Shown: in pieces, positions 13,693 through 24,664 of the stretch
Position numbering within the stretch: position 1 is the stretch's first letter
How the letters are laid out: each line of letters starts with the position of its first letter
Virus record (IMG/VR): IMGVR_UViG_3300046007_005147
Location: 1 to 26,437 of that record
DNA: 26,437 bases
Strand: one strand, 5' to 3'
Source of the DNA: a virus
The notes under the pieces: generated by a model
Databases searched by the model: none
The model's input: the letters and a program-made list of their open reading frames with translations, nothing else
What the model was told of the DNA's origin: nothing
Translations under genes and position numbers: made by a program

Positions 13693-14403
13693 TCAATCAG
13701 AAGTTTTAAATTCGTATGTGTTGTTATTTATAGGTTTTATGCCTGTTAATATCTCTGTCAATGCACCGGTTTTATTGTCATGAGTGAATTGAATGGTAGG
13801 ATCACACCATATATCCAATCCCGCTTTTTTAGCGTTGTTGCAGAAAACGTAATCCTCTCCCCAGAAATCACCGTCAATAATTTCAGTGTTAAAGAACGCA
13901 TAACCTTCCTCTACATTCATGTCTACGTCATATCCGTAATACTTCAAATGCTGTAATGATTCTTGCATCTTCAATAACGCAACTTTCGAGATCATCAAAA
14001 ACCCAGCAGGGACAGCCAACATTTTTAAAAGTTTACCTTCAGTTATTATACTGTTGTCAGGATTTGTGTCTGGCCTAAAAATAAATCTTTTTTCTGTTTT
14101 ATTATTTCTGACAGGATAAACACCCGCAATAATATCAGTATCATATTGTAAAAACTTCATAGGTGCGTTGGGATCCCATCCCATGTCACTGTCTATGCAT
14201 AATAGATGTGTGCAATCAGATTTCATGAATGTGTGAACAATCTGATTTCTTTCTTTGGCAAGTATCGAACCTGTAGTGGGCAACAATACTATAGTTTGTA
14301 TACCCGCATGATCAAGTAAATATAAACTTTGAATTAATGACAATGTGAACGTGTTGTCTACTTTTCCGCCATGACAAGGTGAAGCGATCATAAGTTTTTT
14401 CAT
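13693..14403 (-). CDS. GT-A type glycosyltransferase inside the fibre cluster
   Basis: A 236-residue protein with a nucleotide-sugar-binding GT-A plan. It has the N-terminal KKLMIASPCHGGKV, then ERNQIVHTFMKSDCTHLLCI leading to the metal-binding DSD (residues 71-73, DSDMGWDP), and IIAGVYPVRNN (91-101). VPAGFLMISK is at about 131-140. WGEDYVFCNNAKKAG (181-195) holds the usual catalytic-region acidic pair. Such enzymes add a sugar to protein, lipid or DNA; the acceptor cannot be read from sequence. Lying between propeller fibres and another fibre, it could glycosylate fibre proteins or alter the host surface. The C-terminal ITH/FTHDNKTG is typical. There is no membrane segment. Confidence 0.85.
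   Translation of the reverse strand: MKKLMIASPCHGGKVDNTFTLSLIQSLYLLDHAGIQTIVLLPTTGSILAKERNQIVHTFMKSDCTHLLCIDSDMGWDPNAPMKFLQYDTDIIAGVYPVRNNKTEKRFIFRPDTNPDNSIITEGKLLKMLAVPAGFLMISKVALLKMQESLQHLKYYGYDVDMNVEEGYAFFNTEIIDGDFWGEDYVFCNNAKKAGLDIWCDPTIQFTHDNKTGALTEILTGIKPINNNTYEFKTSD
13725..13732 (-). promoter_or_regulatory. T4-type late promoter at the 3' end of the glycosyltransferase gene
   Basis: An exact TATAAATA on the minus strand inside the last codons of the glycosyltransferase gene, 138 bases upstream of the GC-rich fibre ATG and about 100 bases upstream of the leader frame. Its position suggests separate late transcription of the fibre, its small partner and perhaps the lysis genes. Confidence 0.7.
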
Positions 14404-14423: not shown

Positions 14424-15731
14424 TTATGTTTTAATATATATCCGGACATTTTTTCCGTAGCCGTTGTCGTAAGGAGAAAACTCACCATCGAATGGCGGAG
14501 TTTTAAAATGTGTGGTTGTGTTGTATGAGATAGTGTCTGGCAATTGTGTGTATGATTGAATAGCCCCGAGGCTGACGGTGTTGTTTCCGACAGTCACAAA
14601 AACATCGTTGCCGTATGCTATGCCATTAAAAATATAAGTAAATGATGAGCTGTCATCTATAGTCATATTCCTCCAGGAAACACCATTAGTTGATGTCTGG
14701 ATTGTCCCGTTGGTAATGAGGCCGGGTCCACCTGATGCGATAAAAACACCATCGCCATATGTTACAGCGTTTAAATCCATGTATATATCTCTTGCCAGTC
14801 TTTTATGCCAGACTATACCATCAGTTGATGTTTGAATAGTACCCGCTTCACCAACTGCGACAAAAACGCCATTGCCGTATGCTACTGCAAAATTTGATCT
14901 AGTGTTACTGGCACCCGTTACTTCAGACCATGTAATTCCGTTGGTGGATGTTGCGATACCGCCTGCTGTTATTCCTGCAAAAAGTCCTTCAGTTACTGCG
15001 ACAAAAACACCGTTGCCGTATGCTACGCCTCTATGGATAATCGAAGAAGAAAAAACACCGGTTCTGTTCGTCCATGTAGTGCCGTTAGTGGATGATTGTA
15101 TAGACCCTGCACTGCCCACGGAAACAAAAACTCCGTTGCCGTATGCGACGCCATATTGTGTTTGCGTGTTAGCAGTAGTTCTATTCGTCCATGTGATTCC
15201 GTCAGTGGATGATGTGATACTACCCGAAGACCCGACAGTCACAAAAACACCATTGCCGTATGCGACGGCATTTTGATTACTGCTGTTTGCGCGGGTTCTA
15301 TTCGTCCATGTAGTGCCGTTAGTGGATGATTGTATAGACCCTGCGAGGCCCACGGAAACAAAAACACCATTGCCGTATGCTACAGCAAATTGACCATTGT
15401 TGTTAGCAATTGTTCTATTCGTCCAGGTTACATTTTTTACATCTTTATATGGATTCAGATTCAACAATGCACCTAGTTCGGGATAATTTGATATTAAGAT
15501 GGCGTTGTTTGTTACTTCTAGATACCCACTAGGAGTGCTTGGCTCATATGAAATTCTATATGAGCCAGTGGGATCATCGCAAATAAGTCCCTTTCTTAAT
15601 ACATCGTCAATTCGGGAATCTGAAAACGCTTCTTGTGCGCCGTTTAATAGAGTTATTTCATTGTTATCATAAACAATTTTATTATTTCCTGTAGAGTCAA
15701 AAAAAATATTTGCTACTTGAAGTGTGCTCAT
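14424..15731 (-). CDS. Seven-bladed beta-propeller tail fibre, third of three
   Basis: A 435-residue protein. The N-terminus STLQVANIFFDSTGNNKI (2-19) is a docking-like segment shared with the first propeller gene. A collar-like block follows, ending YLEVTNNAILISNYPELGAL (about 70-89). Residue 103 onwards holds seven repeats of about 40 residues with the core VAYGNGVFVSVG..GSIQSSTNGTTW, each ending in a degenerate Asp-box (S-S-T-D/N-G-x-T-W). The seven blades predict one closed propeller. The C-terminus KTPPFDGEFSPYD..KNVRIYIKT resembles the end of tail-collar domains. Positions just after WTNRT (for example IANNNGQ, RANSSNQ, TANTQTQ) differ from blade to blade and may form the binding face. 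It overlaps the preceding gene by ATGA. It is likely a receptor-binding protein; the ligand is unknown. Confidence 0.85.
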   Translation of the reverse strand: MSTLQVANIFFDSTGNNKIVYDNNEITLLNGAQEAFSDSRIDDVLRKGLICDDPTGSYRISYEPSTPSGYLEVTNNAILISNYPELGALLNLNPYKDVKNVTWTNRTIANNNGQFAVAYGNGVFVSVGLAGSIQSSTNGTTWTNRTRANSSNQNAVAYGNGVFVTVGSSGSITSSTDGITWTNRTTANTQTQYGVAYGNGVFVSVGSAGSIQSSTNGTTWTNRTGVFSSSIIHRGVAYGNGVFVAVTEGLFAGITAGGIATSTNGITWSEVTGASNTRSNFAVAYGNGVFVAVGEAGTIQTSTDGIVWHKRLARDIYMDLNAVTYGDGVFIASGGPGLITNGTIQTSTNGVSWRNMTIDDSSSFTYIFNGIAYGNDVFVTVGNNTVSLGAIQSYTQLPDTISYNTTTHFKTPPFDGEFSPYDNGYGKNVRIYIKT

Positions 15732-17880
15732 TTGTATCTCACATATGCTGTTAAATCCAAGCCGACATCAACGGCAGGGATGTAAAATAAACCTTCGTTA
15801 TAAGATTCTATGATTCCTAAAGAATCCACAGACACGAAAACACCATTGCCGTATGCTATTCCAGAACGTGAACTATTATTAGCACTAATCATATTCGTCC
15901 ATGTGATGCCGTCAGTGGATGATGTGATACTGCCCGCAGCCCCGACAGTTACGAAAACACCATTGCCGTATGCTACGCCATTTTGAGCATTGGTGTTTGC
16001 GCGGGTTCTATTCGTCCATGTAGTGCCGTTGGTGGATGTTTGAATACTGCCCGAACTACCAACTGCGACAAAAACGCCATTGCCGTATGCGACGGCATTT
16101 TGATGAGTGTTGTTTGCGCTGGCTCTGTTCGTCCATGTAGTGCCGTCAGTGGATGATTGAATGGAGCCGTTAAGCCCGACAGATACAAAAACACCATTGC
16201 CGTATGCTACACCGTATTGCTCACTGGTGTTAGCAGTTGTTCTATTCGTCCATGTAGTGCCGTTAGTGGATGATTGTATAGAACCATTCCTACCCACAGA
16301 AACAAAAACGCCATTACCATATGCTACAGCATTTTGCATGTTTGCGTTGGCGGATGTCCTGCTAACCCATGTAATGCCGTTAGTGGATGATTGGATAGTC
16401 ACTGCACCAGCACCAGCCGTGGCTCCTCCGACAACGACAAAAACGCCATTACCGTATGCTACGCCATTTTGAGCATTCGATGCCGCGCTACTACGTTTCA
16501 CCCATGCAATTCCGTCAGTGGATGTTTGGACGGTGTCAGCTGTATCTCCCACAGCAACAAAAACACCATTGCCATATGCAACGCCATTAAGCGAAGTATC
16601 ATTTCCGGCTCTTTGTGTGAAGACCGAAAAATAATTTTCCGTCAAAACGGGTGCTGTGTCAATCGAATGAAAAGACCCTGTCAGTAATGCATTGGTCGGT
16701 GAAGCAATTGACGAATTTAATACAATTAAATCTAGCAAAACACCTTGCGATAAAACATTGTTGACGTAAATCCCTGAATTATTTACGATTGTGTTGTTCG
16801 CAAAAACCATCGAAGAAGAATTTATTTGATTGAAAGTACTGCCTACTTTCACAACAAAACTGTTTGATGCGGCGTTTACGTATATTTTATTATCAGCGCT
16901 TAAGTTTACGTTTGATACAATCAAAGTCATTTACGTTGCTTTCACATATTGTTTTGCGATAGGATTGATTAAATTATACGGCGGGATTACCGTGAATTCT
17001 GTAGTAGGTCTGATAGTTCTTTGAATGAATGCAGGGCTTCCTGCAGAACTACCTCCCACAGAAACAAAAACGCCATTGCCGAATGCTACAGCATTTCTTG
17101 TGAAAGAACCACCATTGAATGAATTGTAACCTCTGTCTCTCCACGTAATGGCATCAGTGGACGATTGAATAATCCCATTATTACCCACCGCAACATAAAC
17201 GCCATTGCCGTATGCTACACCTAATAGTGCGTAGGAATTATTAGCAGAAGTTCTATTCGTCCATGTAGTGCCCGTGGGGGATGTTTGGATAACTGAACTA
17301 TAAGAGTCACCCCCGACAGCAACAAATCCCCCCGAAGAATGATATGTTACAGCACTAAAACCGTTAGTTCCCATGGAGGCGGCGGTGCGGCTTGTCCATG
17401 TAATGCCATCAGTGGACGATTGAATATCATTACTCCCTACAGCCACGAAAGTGCCGGTGCCGTATGCCACACTATCAGTGGCAGAAGTAGAAGCAGAAGT
17501 TCTATTTGTCCATGTAATGCCATCAGTGGATGTTTGAATAGCACCCAACCTACCCGTAACCACAAAAATACCTTCACCGTATGTTACTGCAAAAAGCCAT
17601 GCGCCGGAATTGGTGTTAGCAGAAGTTCTATTCGTCCATGTAATGCCATCAGTGGACGATTGAATAGCTGGGCTACCGACGCTGCCCACAGCAACAAAAA
17701 CACCATTGCCGTATGCCACACCATATAGTAACCCTGTGTTAGCAGAAGTTCTATTCGTCCATGTGATGCCGTCAGTGGATGTTTGAATACTGCCCGAAGG
17801 ACCAACTGCGACAAAAACGCCATTGCCGTATGTTACGGCTCTAGGAGTAAAGTTGTTAGCTGAAGTCACAGTAAACCATC
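14560..17880 (-). repeat. Twenty-one propeller blade repeats across three genes
   Basis: Each blade is about 117-135 bases. A short DNA core, plus-strand GCCATTGCCGTATGCTAC with small changes, recurs in nearly every blade, as does ATTCGTCCATGTAGTGCCG. Three blades at about 15055, 15297 and 16238 share almost the same 45 or more bases. The 7+7+7 count comes from reading the translated proteins by eye. Confidence 0.85.
15728..16930 (-). CDS. Seven-bladed beta-propeller tail fibre, second of three
   Basis: A 400-residue paralogue of its two neighbours. The N-terminus is different in detail (TLIVSNVNLSADNKIYVNAA, 2-21) and followed by a beta-rich stalk. The YP collar block seen in the other two is not recognisable. 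Seven blades start near residue 110; their cores are all variants of VAYGNGVFVxVG and SSTxGxTW. The end FYIPAVDVGLDLTAYVRYK again resembles the last strand of a collar domain. Several blades are nearly identical in DNA sequence to blades of the third propeller gene, so exchange between the genes is likely. It starts at TAAATG right after the first propeller gene and ends in an ATGA overlap with the third. Confidence 0.85.
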   Translation of the reverse strand: MTLIVSNVNLSADNKIYVNAASNSFVVKVGSTFNQINSSSMVFANNTIVNNSGIYVNNVLSQGVLLDLIVLNSSIASPTNALLTGSFHSIDTAPVLTENYFSVFTQRAGNDTSLNGVAYGNGVFVAVGDTADTVQTSTDGIAWVKRSSAASNAQNGVAYGNGVFVVVGGATAGAGAVTIQSSTNGITWVSRTSANANMQNAVAYGNGVFVSVGRNGSIQSSTNGTTWTNRTTANTSEQYGVAYGNGVFVSVGLNGSIQSSTDGTTWTNRASANNTHQNAVAYGNGVFVAVGSSGSIQTSTNGTTWTNRTRANTNAQNGVAYGNGVFVTVGAAGSITSSTDGITWTNMISANNSSRSGIAYGNGVFVSVDSLGIIESYNEGLFYIPAVDVGLDLTAYVRYK

Positions 17881-18241
17881 GTTCAACACCAGTATTAGCG
17901 CCGCCTACGAGTGAGAATAAACTCGGATACGCCGCTTGTGATAATATGACGTTGCATGATACAAATTCGAACGGATTTTCATCAACAATTGTTAAACTCG
18001 ATTGTGCATCATACTTCGTTACAATATCACCTAGTCGATAAGAATTTAAATTATATGGTCCTCCGCTGATAGATGACAATATAGGAAAACTAACATCATT
18101 GCGTGTTAATGTTATTTCTGTAGAATTAGCCGTCAACATAGGTTTACCGGATTGAAAAATAGAAACATTCGATCCGATAATTTGAATTCTATTGTTACCT
18201 GTAGATTCTAAATGTATGTTAGATACTTCTACTGTTGACAT
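16931..18241 (-). CDS. Seven-bladed beta-propeller tail fibre, first of three
   Basis: A 436-residue protein. The docking-like N-terminus STVEVSNIHLESTGNNRI matches the third propeller gene. A collar-like block follows, with VSCNVILSQAAYPSLFSLVG (94-113). The propeller begins at about residue 122 with seven blades (cores AVTYGNGVFVAVG, GVAYGNGVFVAVG and so on, each followed by a degenerate Asp-box such as TSTDGITW). Blades 4 and 5 are the most divergent in this paralogue. The C-terminus TEFTVIPPYNLINPIAKQYV then KAT resembles a collar end. The propeller thus looks inserted into a collar domain. A GGAG ribosome site lies 8 bases from ATG, one base after the previous stop codon. Confidence 0.85.
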   Translation of the reverse strand: MSTVEVSNIHLESTGNNRIQIIGSNVSIFQSGKPMLTANSTEITLTRNDVSFPILSSISGGPYNLNSYRLGDIVTKYDAQSSLTIVDENPFEFVSCNVILSQAAYPSLFSLVGGANTGVERWFTVTSANNFTPRAVTYGNGVFVAVGPSGSIQTSTDGITWTNRTSANTGLLYGVAYGNGVFVAVGSVGSPAIQSSTDGITWTNRTSANTNSGAWLFAVTYGEGIFVVTGRLGAIQTSTDGITWTNRTSASTSATDSVAYGTGTFVAVGSNDIQSSTDGITWTSRTAASMGTNGFSAVTYHSSGGFVAVGGDSYSSVIQTSPTGTTWTNRTSANNSYALLGVAYGNGVYVAVGNNGIIQSSTDAITWRDRGYNSFNGGSFTRNAVAFGNGVFVSVGGSSAGSPAFIQRTIRPTTEFTVIPPYNLINPIAKQYVKAT

Positions 18242-18242
18242 A

Positions 18243-18809
18243 TTATACTCCTATTGCTAACCAATACACTGTGCTTGCGGTTGCGTTAGCAGATCTTAAT
18301 GTCGCAGTTGTGGTCGTCAGCGCTGTAACTGCAGGCAATGTATTACCCACGGTGCTCACACTAGGTGTCAATTGCATGGTATATACTGCAGAAAATGCTG
18401 TAGGGAATGTGACTGATCCTGAACTTGAGTTAACCGATGTGTTACCCCATTGCATCAATAATCCATTAGGTAATCTGCTGTGTCCAGGATTTGCAATTGA
18501 AGAAGTTCCTAATGTTAAAGTATTAGTACTGAGAGTCGCATTCGCAGCAGTGACAGCACCGGTAACTGATAAATTCGCCTGTGCTGCTACGTTTCCGGTG
18601 ACAGTCAACGTGCTTGTCATAGTTGCAGCAGCGTTTACTCTAACACCGGTAGTGTTTGCAATGATCACGTTCATTGTGCTGTTTGCTGCTACAGTAACAG
18701 TGTTTGTCGAATTTATTATAATCGACGGTCCTGAGGTGTTACCGGTTCTAACAGTCAAATTAGTGGAACCGTCTTTCGTGTTTATTGTAGTTGTTGTTAA
18801 GCTTGACAT
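18243..18809 (-). CDS. Short tail fibre with gp53-like C-terminal tip
   Basis: A 188-residue fibre protein. The N-terminal 50 residues or so (TNLTVRTGNTSGPSIIINST) align with the N-terminus of the glycine-rich fibre at 24982-25905 (TSLTISTGNTSAGDIVLNSG), suggesting a shared attachment domain. A beta-repeat stalk follows. The C-terminal 80 residues, GHSRLPNGLLMQWGNTSV then GSVTFPTAFSAVYTMQ and a final YWLAIGV, match the pattern of the gp53-like C-terminal fibre domain (x-LPNGLxxQWG ... FP ... YWxAIG), a receptor-binding tip. The ATG overlaps the giant fibre stop as TAATG, so it may be translated together with that protein and act as its tip or a separate fibre. Confidence 0.85.
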   Translation of the reverse strand: MSSLTTTTINTKDGSTNLTVRTGNTSGPSIIINSTNTVTVAANSTMNVIIANTTGVRVNAAATMTSTLTVTGNVAAQANLSVTGAVTAANATLSTNTLTLGTSSIANPGHSRLPNGLLMQWGNTSVNSSSGSVTFPTAFSAVYTMQLTPSVSTVGNTLPAVTALTTTTATLRSANATASTVYWLAIGV

Positions 18810-21800
18810 TATACGATCACCACTCTTCCACCTTCACTGATTGTTAAATTAAACCCGTCTTGGATGACAACGGGACCTGCAGTTAGCGCATTTTCACCCG
18901 CGTCAATCGTGACATTATTAGATTGTGTATTACTATTTATTCGATATAGATTGTTTCGGCTGTTTGTTTCACCGACAGCTCCCAGATTTCCTTTGTAGTA
19001 TCCGCCGCCGCCACCAATAGAACCCCATGCGGAATTAGCAAAACCTTCAAATCTTACCAATTCACTATTATAACGGATCATACCATTAGCACCCGTAGGT
19101 CTTTGTGTAGTATTACCTACAGGTATGAAAATCGCGTCATTTGCTACTATATGCAAAGCAACACTAGGAGTCGTAGTTCTTACGCCGACACGGTTATTGA
19201 CCGCATCCACGAATAAAGTTCCTGTGTCAAAGTTTGCGTTTGCAGTGACAGTCAAGTTTGCAAGTGTTCCTACTGCAGTTATACCTGTATACTCACCAGA
19301 AATTCTTGCAGTGTTTAAAGTTCCGCTTGTAATGTTTTGTGCGTTTGCATAGAATGAAGCAGGTTGACCATTAAAGTTGGATGCGTTGTTTGACGTTCCG
19401 CTGAAGTTTGTTGCGTTGATTGTCGCAGTAGCAGTTGAATTTATGAATGCTACTGCGATAGAGTTTACAGTCGAATTGACAATACTATTGCCTACAAAGA
19501 GCGTCGAAGCATTCACAATCACATTAGCGCCGACTGCAACAACTGTGGCGTTAACAGTCGAAATGCCAACACGCAGGTCAACAGGTGACAAGTTTGCTAT
19601 ACCTGAGGCATTCGATACACGCACTAACGTAGCAGTTTGTAGAGAGTTGACAGTGCTGTTACCAACAAACAATGCAGAAGTGTTTGCAATCACATTAGCG
19701 CCCACGAACAACCCGCTCGCAAAGTTTACGTTTGCAGCAGTAAAATTCAAATTACCTGATAACGTTCTGGAATCAGTATTCTGAACATAAGAAGCAGCAG
19801 CAGTTCCGCCCAAGAAAGAAGCGTTGTTAGCAGCTATAGTTGCGATGTATGATGCATTTACATGAACGCCTGTAGTGTTCACAGCGAGTCCTGTCCCTGC
19901 GACGACTAGAAGAGAAACATCACCTGATGTTCCGCCACCTGATAATCCGTTTGCCGCGCTGACGCCAGTTATGTCACCTAAAGTTCCTGTGACAAGTAAG
20001 TGTGTCGCATTTGATGATACGACAATGCCGTTTGCACCAGAAACCAATATATCGTCATTAGCATTCGAACTATCGCGGAGACGAATTATCCCTTGATTTA
20101 CTGTTGTGTTAGCTACTGCAAGCAAATCATATGATGCGCTGTCATCTAAAGCCCAGTAGGTCGCAGTTCCATTTGAATGTAATACTTGACCCGCAGTTCC
20201 GAATCCGCCATTTGCAGAAAGACCTGCTCCTAGTATGACGTTTGCGTTAAATGTAGTGTTTCCTGTTCTTGTAAACGCGGCTGTAGTGTTTACGACATTA
20301 ACTGGAATTCGGGCATACGGCAAAGTTCCGGATGTGATGTTGTCAGCATTTGCATAGAATGAAGCAGGTTGACCATTGAAATTTGATGCGTTGTTTGACG
20401 TTCCGGTAAAGTTGGTTGCGTTAATTGTCGCGGTTGCTGTAGAATTTATGAATGCAACCGCGATAGAGTTTACAGTCGCATTGACAGTACTATTACCGAC
20501 CAACAATGCAGTTGCGTTTGCAATAACGTTTGCACCCACAGCAACTGCCGTTGCATTAACTGTAGAAATTCCTATACGCAAATCGAGTGCGGTCAAGTTA
20601 GCAGTTGATGTGCTATTTGAAACTTGAAGCAATGACGCCGTGTGTGTTGCGTTGACTGTCGAGTTCGTATATACTTGAACAGCAGTTGCAGTTAAGTTAG
20701 CAGTTGATGTGCTATTAGAAACTTGAAGCAAACCAGAATTATGTGTAGAATTCACAGTGCTGTTGCCCACAAAAACAGTTGTCGCATTACTGTAAACATT
20801 AGCACCAACATTTATTTGAGTTGTGTTAACGCTTGCAATACCTGCAAAGAAACCTAAAGCAGTCAAGTTAGCAGTTGATGTGCTATTTGAAACTTGCAAC
20901 AACGATGAGGTATGTGAAGCATTGACTGTGCTATTACCGATAAACAACGCAGTCGTGTTTGTAATGACATTCGCACCAACTTTCAGACCTGCAGTGTATG
21001 TTACATTTGCACCTGAAAATTCTAAGTTGCCTGATAGCGTTCTGCTATCAGTATTTGTGACATATGAAGCATTTACATGAACACCAGTCGCATTGACAAC
21101 AACTCCTGTTCCTGCAACAACTGCAAGAGAAACGTCACCTGAAGTTCCGCCGCCGGTCAAACCGTTTCCTGCAGCCACACCATTAATATCACCCGCAGTT
21201 CCGGTGACAAGTAAGTGTGTCGCGTTAGAAGATATGATGATGCCATTAGCGCCTGTGATAAGCACATTGTCATTTGCATCTGAACTATCTCTAAGTCTTA
21301 AGATACCCTCATTTGCTGCTGTATTAGTTACTGCAAGCAAATCATATGTTGTGTTATCATCTACTGCCCAATAGGTCGCGGTCCCATTTGAGTGTAATGT
21401 TTGACCTGCAGTACCGAATCCGCCATTTGCGGAAAGACCTGCTCCTAATATGACGTTTGCGTTGAAAGTTGTATTCGCTGTTCTGGTGAATACAGCGGTT
21501 GTGTTAATAACGTTCACTGGGATTTGTGAATATGGCAAAGTCCCTGTAGTGATATTTGTTGCGTTTGTATAAAACGCGCCGCCTTGACCGTTCAAGTTTG
21601 TGGCGTTATTTGCGGTTCCGGTATAGCTTGTTGCGTTTATTGTTGCTGTAACAGTAGAGTTTGTGAATGCAACAGAACTAGAGTTTATCGTGCTATTGAC
21701 AATATTATTACCTAATACGATACTCGTATTCTGTATTGAAATGCCGTTAGTTGTTCCTATTGAACCTACAGTTATGTTCGCCGTTGCATTGATAGTTGAA

Positions 21801-24664
21801 ACGTTCAATGCTGTAGCATATACGTTAGTTGCTACAACGTTACCTGTAGTTTGCACGGAATCTTTGTTGATATAGCTGTATACAGTCGCATTACCTGTAT
21901 ACATTATAGTACTATTAACTATAGAATTTCCGACTGTAATCGTATTGGCAACTGTTAGATTTTGCGCGACAGCAACATTTCCTGCCATGTTTGCGTTTAT
22001 ACCAACCAAATTCCATCTGAGGGTAGTATTACCTAAATTCTTTGCATCCGTATCAGGAATAATATCGCCTTGGGCTTGGAAAGTGCCTGAGGTTACGAGA
22101 TTTCCTGTGACGTTAAAGTTGCCGTTAACAGTTATTGACGAATTAACATACAAATTACCTGATATATTAGCGCCGCCAGTAATAGTTACATTGTTCGACA
22201 CTTGAACAACACCCGTGAATGTCGCCCCTGATAATAGTGCATAGTTTGTTAGATTGCCTGATAGTTGTGCGTTTGAAACGACGTTTGCAGCTGAGACAGA
22301 CCCCACGAATGATGTGTTGTTCGCACTGCCGCTAAATGTCGTGGATGTTATCGTTCCGTTAACACTGTTATTGCCTATTGAGATGCTTGTATTTTGTATC
22401 GAAACGCCATTAGTTGATCCTATTGAACCTACAGTTATGTTCGCCGTTGCGTTGACATGACCTGTATTGACGTATGTAGAATATACGTTGACAACTGTGG
22501 CGTTTCCAGATAATCTCAAGGTTCCTGCGACCGATAATTTGTCGGTTGGTGTGGTATTGCCGATACCTATATTTCCGTTTGCCCCAACTAACAATGCTGT
22601 TGTCGATGAGTTAGCACCTATAGCGGCAGCTGTAGAATTTATTACAGTATTTACTGTAGTGTTTCCGAGGGCTATTCTACTTGACTCAATTGTTACGTTA
22701 GAACCTAAAGATATTGCAGTGCTATTTAACGTAAAATCTGCAGTTTTAATTTCAGAAGGACTGACATTAACTGATGCGGTTGCGTTTAATATTCTTATCT
22801 GTGTTGCAGTAACAAGTGAATTTACAGTAGCATTACCCACGAATAACGCAGTCGCATTAGCGATCACGTTAGCACCAACTGCGACTACAGTGGCGTTAAC
22901 AGTTGAAATACCTACACGCAGGTCAACAGGCGACAAGTTTGCAGTGCTTGTTGAATTTGACACTTGTAGCAAAGTAGCAGTGTGTGAAGCGTTGACAGTA
23001 GCATTACCCACAAATAACGTAGTCGCATTGGCGATTACATTAGCACCCACAGAAACTTGAGCGGATGTGACAACTGAGTTAACAGTTGTGTTACCGATAA
23101 ACAACGCAGTTGCATTGGCGATTACGTTAGCACCTACTGCGACTACAGTAGAGTTTACAGTTGATGTTCCTATACGAAGGTCAACAGGTGATAAGTTTGC
23201 TATACCTGAGGCATTAGATACTTGCAGTAACGTAGCAGTGTGTGTAGCGTTGACTGTAGTATTACCCACGAATAACGTAGTCGCATTGGCGATTACATTA
23301 GCACCCACCGCGACTATAGTTGCGTTAACAGTTGATATTCCCACACGAAGGTCAACAGGTGACAAGTTTGCTATACCGGAAGCATTCGATACTTGTAGCA
23401 ATGTTGCTGTATGTGAAGCATTAACCGTGCTATTACCCACGAATAACGTAGTAGCGTTCGCAATGACGTTGGCACCTACTGCAACTTGTGTAGAAGTAAT
23501 AATTGAATTGACAGTGCTATTACCCACAGACAATGCTGTCGCATTAGCAACCACATTAGCGCCAACAGAAACTTGTGTCGCAGTAACAACTGAGTTAACA
23601 GTACTATTGCCAACAAACAACGCAGTTGCATTGGCGATTACGTTAGCACCTACTGCAACAACTGTGGCGTTGACAGTTGAAATACCTGCAATTACGCTAA
23701 TAGGACTTACGTTGACAGATGCTGTCGAGTTTGCAACGCGAATTTGCGTGCTAACCACAGATGAATTTACAGTGCTATTACCCACGAGAATTGCTGTTGT
23801 GTTTGCAACAACGTTTGCGCCAACAGCAATTGCTGTAGTGTTCACAGTTGAAATACCGGCTACAATGTCAACAGGACTTACGTTAACGGATGCGGTGGAA
23901 TTAGCAACTCTAATTTGTGTGCTGATAACTGAAGCGTTGACGGTGCTATTTCCGACAAACACAGTAGTCGCATTAGCAACAACGTTAGCACCCACAGAAA
24001 CTTGTGCAGATGTAATGACTGAGTTAACAGTTGTGTTTCCTACAAAAAACGCTGTAGCATTTGCAACTACGTTTGCGCCGACAGAAATCGTAGTACTATT
24101 TACTGTAGAAATACCTACACGCAGGTCAACAGGCGACAAGTTTGCAGTGCTTGTTGAATTTGATACTTGTAGCAATGTTGCTGTATGTGAAGCATTAACC
24201 GTGCTATTACCCACGAATAACGTAGTCGCATTAGCGATCACGTTTGCACCAACTGCAACTGCTGTAGTGTTGACGGTTGAAATGCCCGCAGTAACGCTAA
24301 TAGGAGATACGTTAACGGATGCGGTGGAATTAGCAACTCTAACTTGTGTGCTGATAACTGAAGCGTTGACGGTGCTGTTTCCGACAAGAATTGCTGTTGT
24401 GTTCGCAACAACGTTTGCACCCACAGCTATTGCTGTAGTGTTCACGATTGAAACACCTGTGGTCAATCCGATTGGAGTGATTAATGCGCTGGATGTTGCG
24501 TTTGATACTGTGACGTTTCCTGCAACATTGGCAGAACCCACAACTGAAAGCGCAGCGTCTGGAGAAGCGGTATTGATACCTATTCGATTAGAGTCTCCAT
24601 TTGCAACTAGCAAATTGGTGTTGACAACTAAACCATTCTTGACGACAAAATCTTTATCTGCCAT
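18809..24664 (-). CDS. Giant repetitive tail fibre, 1951 residues
   Basis: A very long Asn/Thr/Val/Ala-rich fibre. The N-terminus (ADKDFVVKNGLVVNTNLLVA, 2-21) is followed by the fibre motif NRIGINTASPDAALSVVGSA. Variants of that motif recur near the middle (IGIGNTTPTDKLSVAG) and near the end (NNRVGVRTTTPSVALHIVA). Residues about 70-615 hold twelve copies of a 22-residue unit, VGANVIANATTLFVGNSTVN and variants; five more occur later. Near 865-885 is TDAKNLGNTTLRWNLVG. Two copies of a module of about 200 residues follow. The last 65 residues (YYKGNLGAVGE.. AGENALTAGP.. GGRVVIV) resemble the end of the fibre at the right window edge. The unit suggests a beta-solenoid or trimeric beta shaft. It has its own late promoter. 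It is presumably the long tail fibre or main adhesin. Confidence 0.88.
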   Translation of the reverse strand: MADKDFVVKNGLVVNTNLLVANGDSNRIGINTASPDAALSVVGSANVAGNVTVSNATSSALITPIGLTTGVSIVNTTAIAVGANVVANTTAILVGNSTVNASVISTQVRVANSTASVNVSPISVTAGISTVNTTAVAVGANVIANATTLFVGNSTVNASHTATLLQVSNSTSTANLSPVDLRVGISTVNSTTISVGANVVANATAFFVGNTTVNSVITSAQVSVGANVVANATTVFVGNSTVNASVISTQIRVANSTASVNVSPVDIVAGISTVNTTAIAVGANVVANTTAILVGNSTVNSSVVSTQIRVANSTASVNVSPISVIAGISTVNATVVAVGANVIANATALFVGNSTVNSVVTATQVSVGANVVANATALSVGNSTVNSIITSTQVAVGANVIANATTLFVGNSTVNASHTATLLQVSNASGIANLSPVDLRVGISTVNATIVAVGANVIANATTLFVGNTTVNATHTATLLQVSNASGIANLSPVDLRIGTSTVNSTVVAVGANVIANATALFIGNTTVNSVVTSAQVSVGANVIANATTLFVGNATVNASHTATLLQVSNSTSTANLSPVDLRVGISTVNATVVAVGANVIANATALFVGNATVNSLVTATQIRILNATASVNVSPSEIKTADFTLNSTAISLGSNVTIESSRIALGNTTVNTVINSTAAAIGANSSTTALLVGANGNIGIGNTTPTDKLSVAGTLRLSGNATVVNVYSTYVNTGHVNATANITVGSIGSTNGVSIQNTSISIGNNSVNGTITSTTFSGSANNTSFVGSVSAANVVSNAQLSGNLTNYALLSGATFTGVVQVSNNVTITGGANISGNLYVNSSITVNGNFNVTGNLVTSGTFQAQGDIIPDTDAKNLGNTTLRWNLVGINANMAGNVAVAQNLTVANTITVGNSIVNSTIMYTGNATVYSYINKDSVQTTGNVVATNVYATALNVSTINATANITVGSIGTTNGISIQNTSIVLGNNIVNSTINSSSVAFTNSTVTATINATSYTGTANNATNLNGQGGAFYTNATNITTGTLPYSQIPVNVINTTAVFTRTANTTFNANVILGAGLSANGGFGTAGQTLHSNGTATYWAVDDNTTYDLLAVTNTAANEGILRLRDSSDANDNVLITGANGIIISSNATHLLVTGTAGDINGVAAGNGLTGGGTSGDVSLAVVAGTGVVVNATGVHVNASYVTNTDSRTLSGNLEFSGANVTYTAGLKVGANVITNTTALFIGNSTVNASHTSSLLQVSNSTSTANLTALGFFAGIASVNTTQINVGANVYSNATTVFVGNSTVNSTHNSGLLQVSNSTSTANLTATAVQVYTNSTVNATHTASLLQVSNSTSTANLTALDLRIGISTVNATAVAVGANVIANATALLVGNSTVNATVNSIAVAFINSTATATINATNFTGTSNNASNFNGQPASFYANADNITSGTLPYARIPVNVVNTTAAFTRTGNTTFNANVILGAGLSANGGFGTAGQVLHSNGTATYWALDDSASYDLLAVANTTVNQGIIRLRDSSNANDDILVSGANGIVVSSNATHLLVTGTLGDITGVSAANGLSGGGTSGDVSLLVVAGTGLAVNTTGVHVNASYIATIAANNASFLGGTAAASYVQNTDSRTLSGNLNFTAANVNFASGLFVGANVIANTSALFVGNSTVNSLQTATLVRVSNASGIANLSPVDLRVGISTVNATVVAVGANVIVNASTLFVGNSIVNSTVNSIAVAFINSTATATINATNFSGTSNNASNFNGQPASFYANAQNITSGTLNTARISGEYTGITAVGTLANLTVTANANFDTGTLFVDAVNNRVGVRTTTPSVALHIVANDAIFIPVGNTTQRPTGANGMIRYNSELVRFEGFANSAWGSIGGGGGYYKGNLGAVGETNSRNNLYRINSNTQSNNVTIDAGENALTAGPVVIQDGFNLTISEGGRVVIV
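19735..21620 (-). repeat. Duplicated 200-residue module inside the giant fibre
   Basis: Two copies, about 21620-20995 and 20405-19735, encode the same order of motifs. These are FNGQPASFY, GTLPYARIPVNVVNTT, NANVILGAGLSANGGFGTAG, HSNGTATYWA, RLRDSSNANDDILVSGANGI, SNATHLLVTGT, GGGTSGDVSL and SRTLSGNL, with modest substitutions. A third, shortened copy of only the first part lies near 19400-19330. The module probably forms a globular or coiled unit along the shaft. Confidence 0.8.
22790..24460 (-). repeat. Tandem 22-residue shaft repeats in the giant fibre
   Basis: Twelve copies of the unit VGANVxANATxLFVGNSTVN are spaced irregularly, separated by spacer types such as SNASGIANLSPVDLRVGIST or SNSTASVNVSPVDIVAGIST. 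DNA copies are close but not identical; for example the stretches near 22916 and 24118 agree over about 50 bases with few changes, and those near 19577, 23183 and 23351 share another block. The repeats are coding and arose by internal duplication. Confidence 0.85.

Follow-up and report, generated by a model that had tools for sequence, protein, structure and literature searches.

Whether a whole beta-propeller can be housed inside a phage tail-collar domain is the question raised by three adjoining genes, termed g1, g2, and g3, of the window analyzed here, that is, the whole 26,437-base stretch of an IMG/VR virus record with T4-type genes (IMGVR_UViG_3300046007_005147). Each of the three genes encodes a single seven-bladed propeller between short flanks, the blade profile having counted 7, 7, and 7 blades. 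The initial annotation, made from the sequence alone, had read these flanks as the two halves of a collar domain into which the propeller had been inserted. The split collar was found to be strong in relatives of these genes and weak in the window itself. Accordingly, the relatives are described before the window genes.

Collar halves on both sides of the propeller in relatives

Clusters of such genes are labeled W (the window), V (L164), X (L165), Y (L168), Z (L167), U (L166), and T (L169), with the gene number added where needed. Searches with the window proteins returned mostly propellers in other settings. A search with the L009 protein found many contigs carrying 'G-W-L-x-C-D-G-S-x-x-S-Q-A-T-Y-P-A-L-F' before the propeller, and in the same contigs 'Y-N-x-A-T-Q-F-Q-L-P ... 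L-Y-I-R-A' followed it. When ten relatives were scanned as whole proteins with the Pfam Collar family, three scored above 24 bits (L076 gene 1, 29.8; L076 gene 2, 28.2; L025, 29.9), three matched below this cut-off (L073, L009, and L095), and four gave no match (L076 gene 3 and three L002 genes).

A profile of uninterrupted collars was prepared from 26 propeller-free collars, of which 20 came from bacterial genomes and 6 from phages, including T4 gp12 and gp37. After the propeller was excised, this profile aligned continuously over the join, covering columns 3-58 in the case of X1 (L165 gene 1) and columns 20-61 in the case of L096, and 'tqFqLP' fell on the 'ttFaLPD' columns of the profile. 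In the intact proteins, the profile matched both sides of the propeller, namely, residues 28-53 and 602-615 of L078 and residues 106-129 and 681-698 of L096, with the two matches approximately 550 residues apart. The contribution of the C half was determined by removing the propeller with a script and shuffling the C half 200 times per protein. The C half added collar score in 19 of 23 relatives, in which no more than 5 of the 200 shuffles reached the true score. This count left out Z1 and U2, in which the C motif pattern of the script was not found, and T2, V2, L079, and L146, which were not entered.

Candidate collar halves in the window genes

The motifs quoted in the initial annotation were verified in the genes named, with SQAAYPSLFSLVG and FTVIPPY..QYVKAT in g1, ISNYPELGALL and FKTPPF..RIYIKT in g3, and FYIPAV..AYVRYK in g2. 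The block before the propeller of g1 and g3, which had been likened to the start of a collar, stood up well, as these first halves scored 11.8 and 10.7 bits, respectively, against the uninterrupted-collar profile and neither value was reached by any of 1000 shuffles. The collar-like last strand proposed for all three genes held only in part. When the C-terminal segments were compared with a profile of the C-termini of the 23 relatives, g3 scored 11.1 bits, reached by 1 of 1000 shuffles, but the scores of g2 (2.5 bits; 13 of 1000) and g1 (5.9 bits; 27 of 1000) were weak. As for the suggestion that the middle gene had lost its first half, no such half was detectable by profile; however, a lost half and a diverged one are indistinguishable here, the predicted local distance difference test score (pLDDT) of the AlphaFold model of g2 being <50 across residues 1-101 and also 380-400. 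In g2, the segment 'SPTNALLTGSFHSIDTAPVL', which by eye might be what is left of a first collar half, was rejected since the profile gave no support.

Several results weigh against a split collar. The C-half test was failed by 4 of the 23 relatives, namely, Z3, U1, U3, and L094, with 19, 25, 18, and 14 of 200 shuffles reaching the true score, respectively. In the window, joining the C half brought no increase in this test (the true score was reached by 120 of 200 shuffles for g1, 167 for g2, and 51 for g3), and genes 1 and 3 of L164 failed likewise (200 and 199 of 200). The segment before the g2 propeller scored -0.6 bits against the uninterrupted-collar profile, a value reached by 261 of 1000 shuffles. 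Moreover, when the joined flanks were compared with PDB sequences, a short tail fibre was the sole phage hit, at an expectation value (E) of 0.05; the ribosomal proteins that came next were judged to be chance matches. In the whole-protein Pfam scan, no match of PF07484 Collar (cut-off 24 bits) to g1, g2, or g3 was obtained up to E 1, and the Pfam and PHROG scans of the three whole proteins returned the propeller only, or nothing relevant. After removal of the propeller, PF07484 matched g3 alone, at 14.9 bits and under the cut-off, and scrambling its C half by hand left the score no lower (15.8 bits).

The window motifs are real, yet the window by itself would not settle their identity. The contig L001/L034/L063 carries copies of g1-g3 with 100% protein identity to the window, and the flank profiles of the relatives found the L001 copies of g1 (E 1e-4) and g3 (E 4e-4) at the expected places. 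The match to g1 was that of the N-flank profile, which missed g3, and g1 was missed by the C-flank profile at that threshold. In the g3 model, the predicted helix 84-90 (PELGALL) and strand 430-434 (RIYIK) were collar-like, with a moderate pLDDT of approximately 65-75. The window genes are best read through their relatives, and from the shared layout and the relatives' flank profiles we infer a putative collar in the window as well. The observation made in the initial annotation was confirmed, and its interpretation of a propeller inside a collar was supported.

Propellers as whole inserted units

The AlphaFold models of g3 (mean pLDDT 75.7, blades mostly >90) and g2 (mean pLDDT 72.0, blades mostly >85) both had seven four-stranded blades closing as a ring. 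In the VIA list of solved folds, the best match of the g3 model was virginiamycin B lyase 2z2o (Z 32.3 over 282 residues, root-mean-square deviation 2.6), and designed seven-bladed propellers matched with Z 30.1 and 29.1; this list covered the propeller part only, had no collar row, and is uninformative on the collar. Profile, sequence, and fold searches all assigned the blades to the same type as the DUF6242/BNR-like blades. The protein A0A6J7W9V9, 411 amino acids (aa) long and named 'Phage tail collar domain containing protein', was matched to the g3 model, the alignment spanning 471 columns.

Blades were counted by profile in 36 proteins. Multiples of seven (7, 14, 21, or 28 blades) were found in 23 of them, although many of the 14-blade proteins are mutually related and are not independent counts. 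Among the others, nine were one blade short, two were two short, one was one over, and L025 had four blades. The proteins short of a multiple of seven mostly had an unusually long tail beyond their final detected blade, which would fit a diverged blade overlooked by the profile. Because the counts group around multiples of seven, it was concluded that the inserts come as whole propellers. The 1774-aa protein of L006 (2463-7784), the ends of which are collar-like, gave 34 detected blades and may hold five propellers within a single collar.

The same blades were also observed in other surroundings. In L097, L099, and L101, they lay between glycine-rich tip segments ending like 'GGGGGG..GGDGYVKITWW', which suggests that glycine-rich tips are a second host domain for the propeller; as Pfam Gly_rich_2 matched only L099 among these three, the idea of a glycine-rich domain was borne out only partly. 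Blades of the same kind also occurred within a protein of approximately 1060 aa of other contigs (L008, L010, L015, and similar loci), and the propeller therefore serves several different scaffolds.

Insertion site compared with known collar fibres

In the sequences of T4 gp37 and gp12, the collar helix runs closely into I-P-D-M-R-G or L-P-D-M-R-G, and a large part comes after it. Because the propeller precedes the F-x-L-P strand while the T4 distal parts follow it, the propeller appears to replace the turn between the collar helix and the 'F-x-LPD' strand, which would be another turn of the same domain than the one used in T4. Insertion into a collar, as proposed in the initial annotation, thus holds for the family, but the putative site is this helix-to-strand turn and not the T4 gp12-type loop named there.

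In T4 gp37, D11 is an insertion into the D10 collar (residues 811-881 and 1010-1026), according to the part of PMC6957217 that was available. As proposed for the proteins described here, a distal receptor-binding domain is inserted in a collar, the last strand of which forms the C-terminus (PMC6957217, same part); in gp37, however, the insert is a thin needle after the I-P-D-M-R-G strand, whereas here it is a propeller before the F-x-LP strand. Similarly, T4 gp12 has a collar with a distal part ahead of the final strand (collar residues from the available part of PMC3004832), but its helix-to-LPD turn is uninterrupted, and it is the product of a single gene without a propeller.

Beta-propellers occur in proven or putative receptor-binding proteins of other phages, namely, phi11 Gp45, in which the propeller binds the receptor, PhiKZ gp131C, for which this is proposed, and PRD1 P2 (PMC4901313, available part). 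Those of phi11 and PRD1 P2 have five blades and that of gp131C has seven, and none is reported as lying inside a collar in the available part of PMC4901313. The DUF6242/BNR-like phage proteins share the blade type of the window genes, but in those of the isolates Limnohabitans DC31, Synechococcus S-CBWM1, and B23, collar halves around the propeller were not seen by eye. A BLAST (basic local alignment search tool) comparison of the propeller proteins with phage records returned propeller matches only.

The three-gene cassette

Larger stretches of six contigs besides the window were surveyed for the surroundings of the propeller genes. All six bounded clusters (W, V, X, Y, Z, and U) contained three propeller genes in tandem, no more and no fewer, with other genes on both sides, although X and Y are close relatives with 91% identical glycosyltransferase-like genes and the independent cases are therefore fewer than six. 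In T, the contig end lies in a truncated propeller gene, which is followed by one whole gene. A homologue of the glycosyltransferase-like gene was found near all seven clusters (pairwise identity 40-91%, E <=1e-65), and those beside the other six cassettes were 40-62% identical to the window's gene. This gene is placed before the trio in U and after the trio in the other six.

The cassette occurs in at least two phage kinds, T4-like and podovirus-like, because the portal and capsid families of T are unlike the T4 set and X shares the T family phrog_12985, whereas V, Z, and U have T4-type neck genes (by eye). In a second layout, found at 14 loci (L073, L077-L081, L085, L089, L091, L092, L094-L096, and L146), a single gene encodes approximately 14 blades. 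The number of propellers may also vary within a trio, as 21, 21, and 28 blades were counted in L167 and 7, 7, and 21 in L166. Collagen-like genes were detected upstream of the trio in L165 (121 bits) and, below the cut-off, in L167 (22.5 bits). When isolates were approached via the glycosyltransferase-like gene, the trio was not seen in the 4 of 65 matching records that were covered. The relative of this gene lies amid replication and repair genes in Caulobacter Cr30, Sinorhizobium phiM12, and Stenotrophomonas DLP_6, and beside long fibre-like open reading frames (ORFs) in Marine virus AG-345-L05, in which the trio was not seen. Beyond the glycosyltransferase-like gene of L164 (533-4729), a second tandem trio of tail genes with glycine-rich ends was observed, and Gly_rich_2 was matched in two of these three.

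Flanks and blades compared across trios

The N-terminal flanks were compared using shuffled-alignment Z-scores. Between W and V, the flanks matched by gene position in six of six comparisons, with Z-scores of 20.0, 6.3, and 10.8 for genes 1, 2, and 3, respectively. For X, Y, Z, and T3 (L165, L168, L167, and L169), 19 of 21 comparisons were positional; both groups were picked after the matrix was seen. Among 7776 labelings of the six trios, the true order ranked 55, and it ranked 1 of 36 for X/Y/Z and 1 of 6 for W/V. Over all comparisons, positional matching was modest, at 40 of 96, or 35 of 57 where Z was >=5, which weighs against the explanation given below. Of the C-terminal flanks, only those of X, Y, and Z were positional (rank 1 of 36), the overall rank being 621 of 7776.

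In the case of the blades, the mean best-blade identity of W was 0.62-0.76 among its own genes compared with <=0.60 to V, and that of Z among its own genes was 0.69-0.73. In the close relatives X and Y, the nearest blades were those of the positional partner. At the DNA level, g2 and g3 of the window share blade segments of 101 bases that are up to 90% identical. The most economical interpretation is that collars retain their identity while propellers are copied or exchanged between them; alternatively, within-genome concerted evolution of the repeats would explain the similarity of the blades.

Proposed role and alternative explanations

The explanation that we consider likely is that these proteins are receptor-binding fibre tips, in which the collar surface turn between the helix and the 'F-x-LPD' strand would give way to at least one complete seven-bladed propeller. 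The collar would act as a trimerising socket by which the tip is joined to its fibre; the outward, exchangeable part contacting the host would be the propeller. We infer the tip position, receptor binding, trimerisation, and propeller exchange by recombination. In the window, three such genes lie in tandem, with long fibre genes just upstream and a glycosyltransferase-like gene just downstream. Mechanistically, a trimeric fibre tip held by the collars, with the propellers toward the host, is the most likely arrangement.

In the virophage DSLV2, three consecutive PF07484 collar proteins co-purify with a mass near that of a 1:1:1 trimer, and collar proteins of this type group by genomic position across virophages (PMC12724248, available part). 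Because the trio fits these tripartite collar proteins, it is proposed here, tentatively and with somewhat less than even confidence, that the trio may form one heterotrimeric tip, in which three different collars would interlock in fixed positions, each showing its own propeller. In this reading, the propellers, as closed units in a collar loop, could be homogenised, exchanged, or multiplied by the phage (one to four, perhaps five, per chain) with assembly undisturbed, and the cassette and its glycosyltransferase-like partner may pass between contractile-tailed and short-tailed phages. The likeness lies in three consecutive collar genes, although the middle gene of the window is without a detectable first collar half, and possibly in grouping by position, which was seen here within two groups of contigs and modestly overall. 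Differences are that DSLV2 is a virophage, that its native complex is approximately 55 kDa in all, and that the word 'propeller' is absent from the available text of PMC12724248. The heterotrimer was shown for DSLV2 in that source, whereas for the window trio it is only proposed. Three bacterial PF07484 genes were also observed close together in 5 (G020, G026, G047, G048, and G075) of 17 Collar-matching genomes among 80 searched, at loci L182, L183, L185, L189, L191, L199-L201, and L204-L209, usually with a spacing of 500-650 bases, which was larger in G048. Such trios of collar genes may prove to be general; nothing useful was found in the literature on tandem bacterial collar genes.

It is also quite possible, if short of probable, that the genes encode three separate homotrimeric tips with one receptor each, the tandem trio being a repertoire. 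T4 gp12 and gp37 are homotrimers (PMC3004832, available part), one gene can suffice, as in the single-gene versions with approximately 14 blades at 14 loci, and the propeller number may differ within a trio, as in L167 and L166. However, the six bounded clusters had exactly three genes, never two or four, the first-half flanks were positional in two groups, and the three consecutive virophage collar proteins co-purify as a 1:1:1 complex (PMC12724248, available part).

That the propeller would instead be an enzyme degrading or trimming surface polysaccharide, like sialidase-type tailspikes, is considered unlikely. Each blade carries an S-T-D-G-x-T-W motif that resembles the Asp-box of sialidases. 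No enzyme family was matched convincingly in the Pfam scans, the propeller matches being to DUF6242, and the best fold matches reflect the common seven-blade frame and say nothing on function. Trimeric propeller endosialidases on stems are known from other phages, which favors an enzyme (PMC4901313, available part). Finally, it is improbable that the flanks are no collar but short strand-rich fibre ends that look alike by chance or convergence, because the weak signal in the window's own genes and the low confidence of both models outside the propeller are countered by the strong collar matches in relatives with the shared layout and by the relatives' flank profiles, which find g1 and g3 (L001 copies) at the expected places.

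Gene layout of the window

The T4-type set of the window comprises portal gp20, sheath gp18, tail tube gp19, sheath stabiliser gp15, neck gp14, and terminase. The minus strand carries the structural genes, the three propeller genes among them, and the order of transcription is the 1951-aa probable fibre gene, the fibre gene with a gp53-like end, g1, g2, g3, and the 236-aa glycosyltransferase-like gene of PHROG 1574. Genes g1 and g2 directly abut, and g2 and g3 share a four-base overlap. Table 1 summarizes the features. The 1951-aa probable fibre gene (18809-24664) contains many near-repeats such as SVGANVIANATALFVGNSTVNS, and a Pfam scan of it gave no match.

Table 1. Positions of the propeller genes, their parts, and neighboring genes in the window
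Feature	Coordinates	Strand	Basis
g1, first propeller-in-collar gene, 436 aa	16931..18241	-	ORF; 7 blades (profile); orthologue of L164 gene 1 by N flank, Z 20
g1 putative first collar half, ~residues 59-114, contains SQAAYPSLFSLVGG	17900..18067	-	Uninterrupted-collar profile, 11.8 bits
g1 seven-bladed propeller	17048..17878	-	7 blade matches, residues 125-398
g1 candidate last collar half (RTIRPTTEFTVIPPY..QYVKAT)	16934..17020	-	Relatives' C-terminus profile, 5.9 bits (weak)
g2, middle propeller gene, 400 aa	15728..16930	-	ORF; first collar half not detectable; DUF6242 35.4 bits, above cut-off
g2 seven-bladed propeller	15797..16627	-	7 blade matches; AlphaFold model
g2 candidate last collar strand (FYIPAV..AYVRYK)	15731..15799	-	Relatives' C-terminus profile, 2.5 bits (weak)
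g3, third propeller-in-collar gene, 435 aa	14424..15731	-	ORF; orthologue of L164 gene 3 by N flank, Z 10.8
g3 putative first collar half, residues 56-92, TPSGYLEV..ISNYPELGALL	15456..15566	-	10.7 bits; predicted strand 57-61 and helix 84-90
g3 seven-bladed propeller	14544..15431	-	AlphaFold model; solved-fold matches
g3 putative last collar half (THFKTPPF..RIYIKT)	14427..14534	-	Relatives' C-terminus profile, 11.1 bits; predicted strand 430-434
Glycosyltransferase-like gene (PHROG 1574) accompanying the trio	13693..14403	-	phrog_1574, E 2e-24
Upstream tail fibre gene, gp53-like C-terminal domain	18243..18809	-	PF21882, 54.6 bits; similar-sized gene at the same place in L164
Long upstream gene, 1951 aa, probable fibre	18809..24664	-	ORF; L164 counterpart with similar start at the same place (by eye)

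Implications

A recognition domain inserted in a collar is already known from T4, and similar proteins already have entries in public tables of structures. No account of a propeller within a collar was found in the literature searched, as far as the available text goes; PMC10743442 combines 'beta-propeller', 'tail collar', and 'phage' but, in its available part, treats another protein family. A propeller placed in this collar loop as whole units would exemplify cleanly how host contact can be changed without rebuilding the fibre. Moreover, the conserved trio allows a direct test of heterotrimeric tips in tailed phages, such tips having so far been reported for a virophage. For annotation, some unnamed DUF6242/BNR-like phage proteins would be fibre tips with a split collar, which can be missed by standard whole-protein scans. 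The presence of the three-gene set in distant phages suggests a swappable host-recognition tip.

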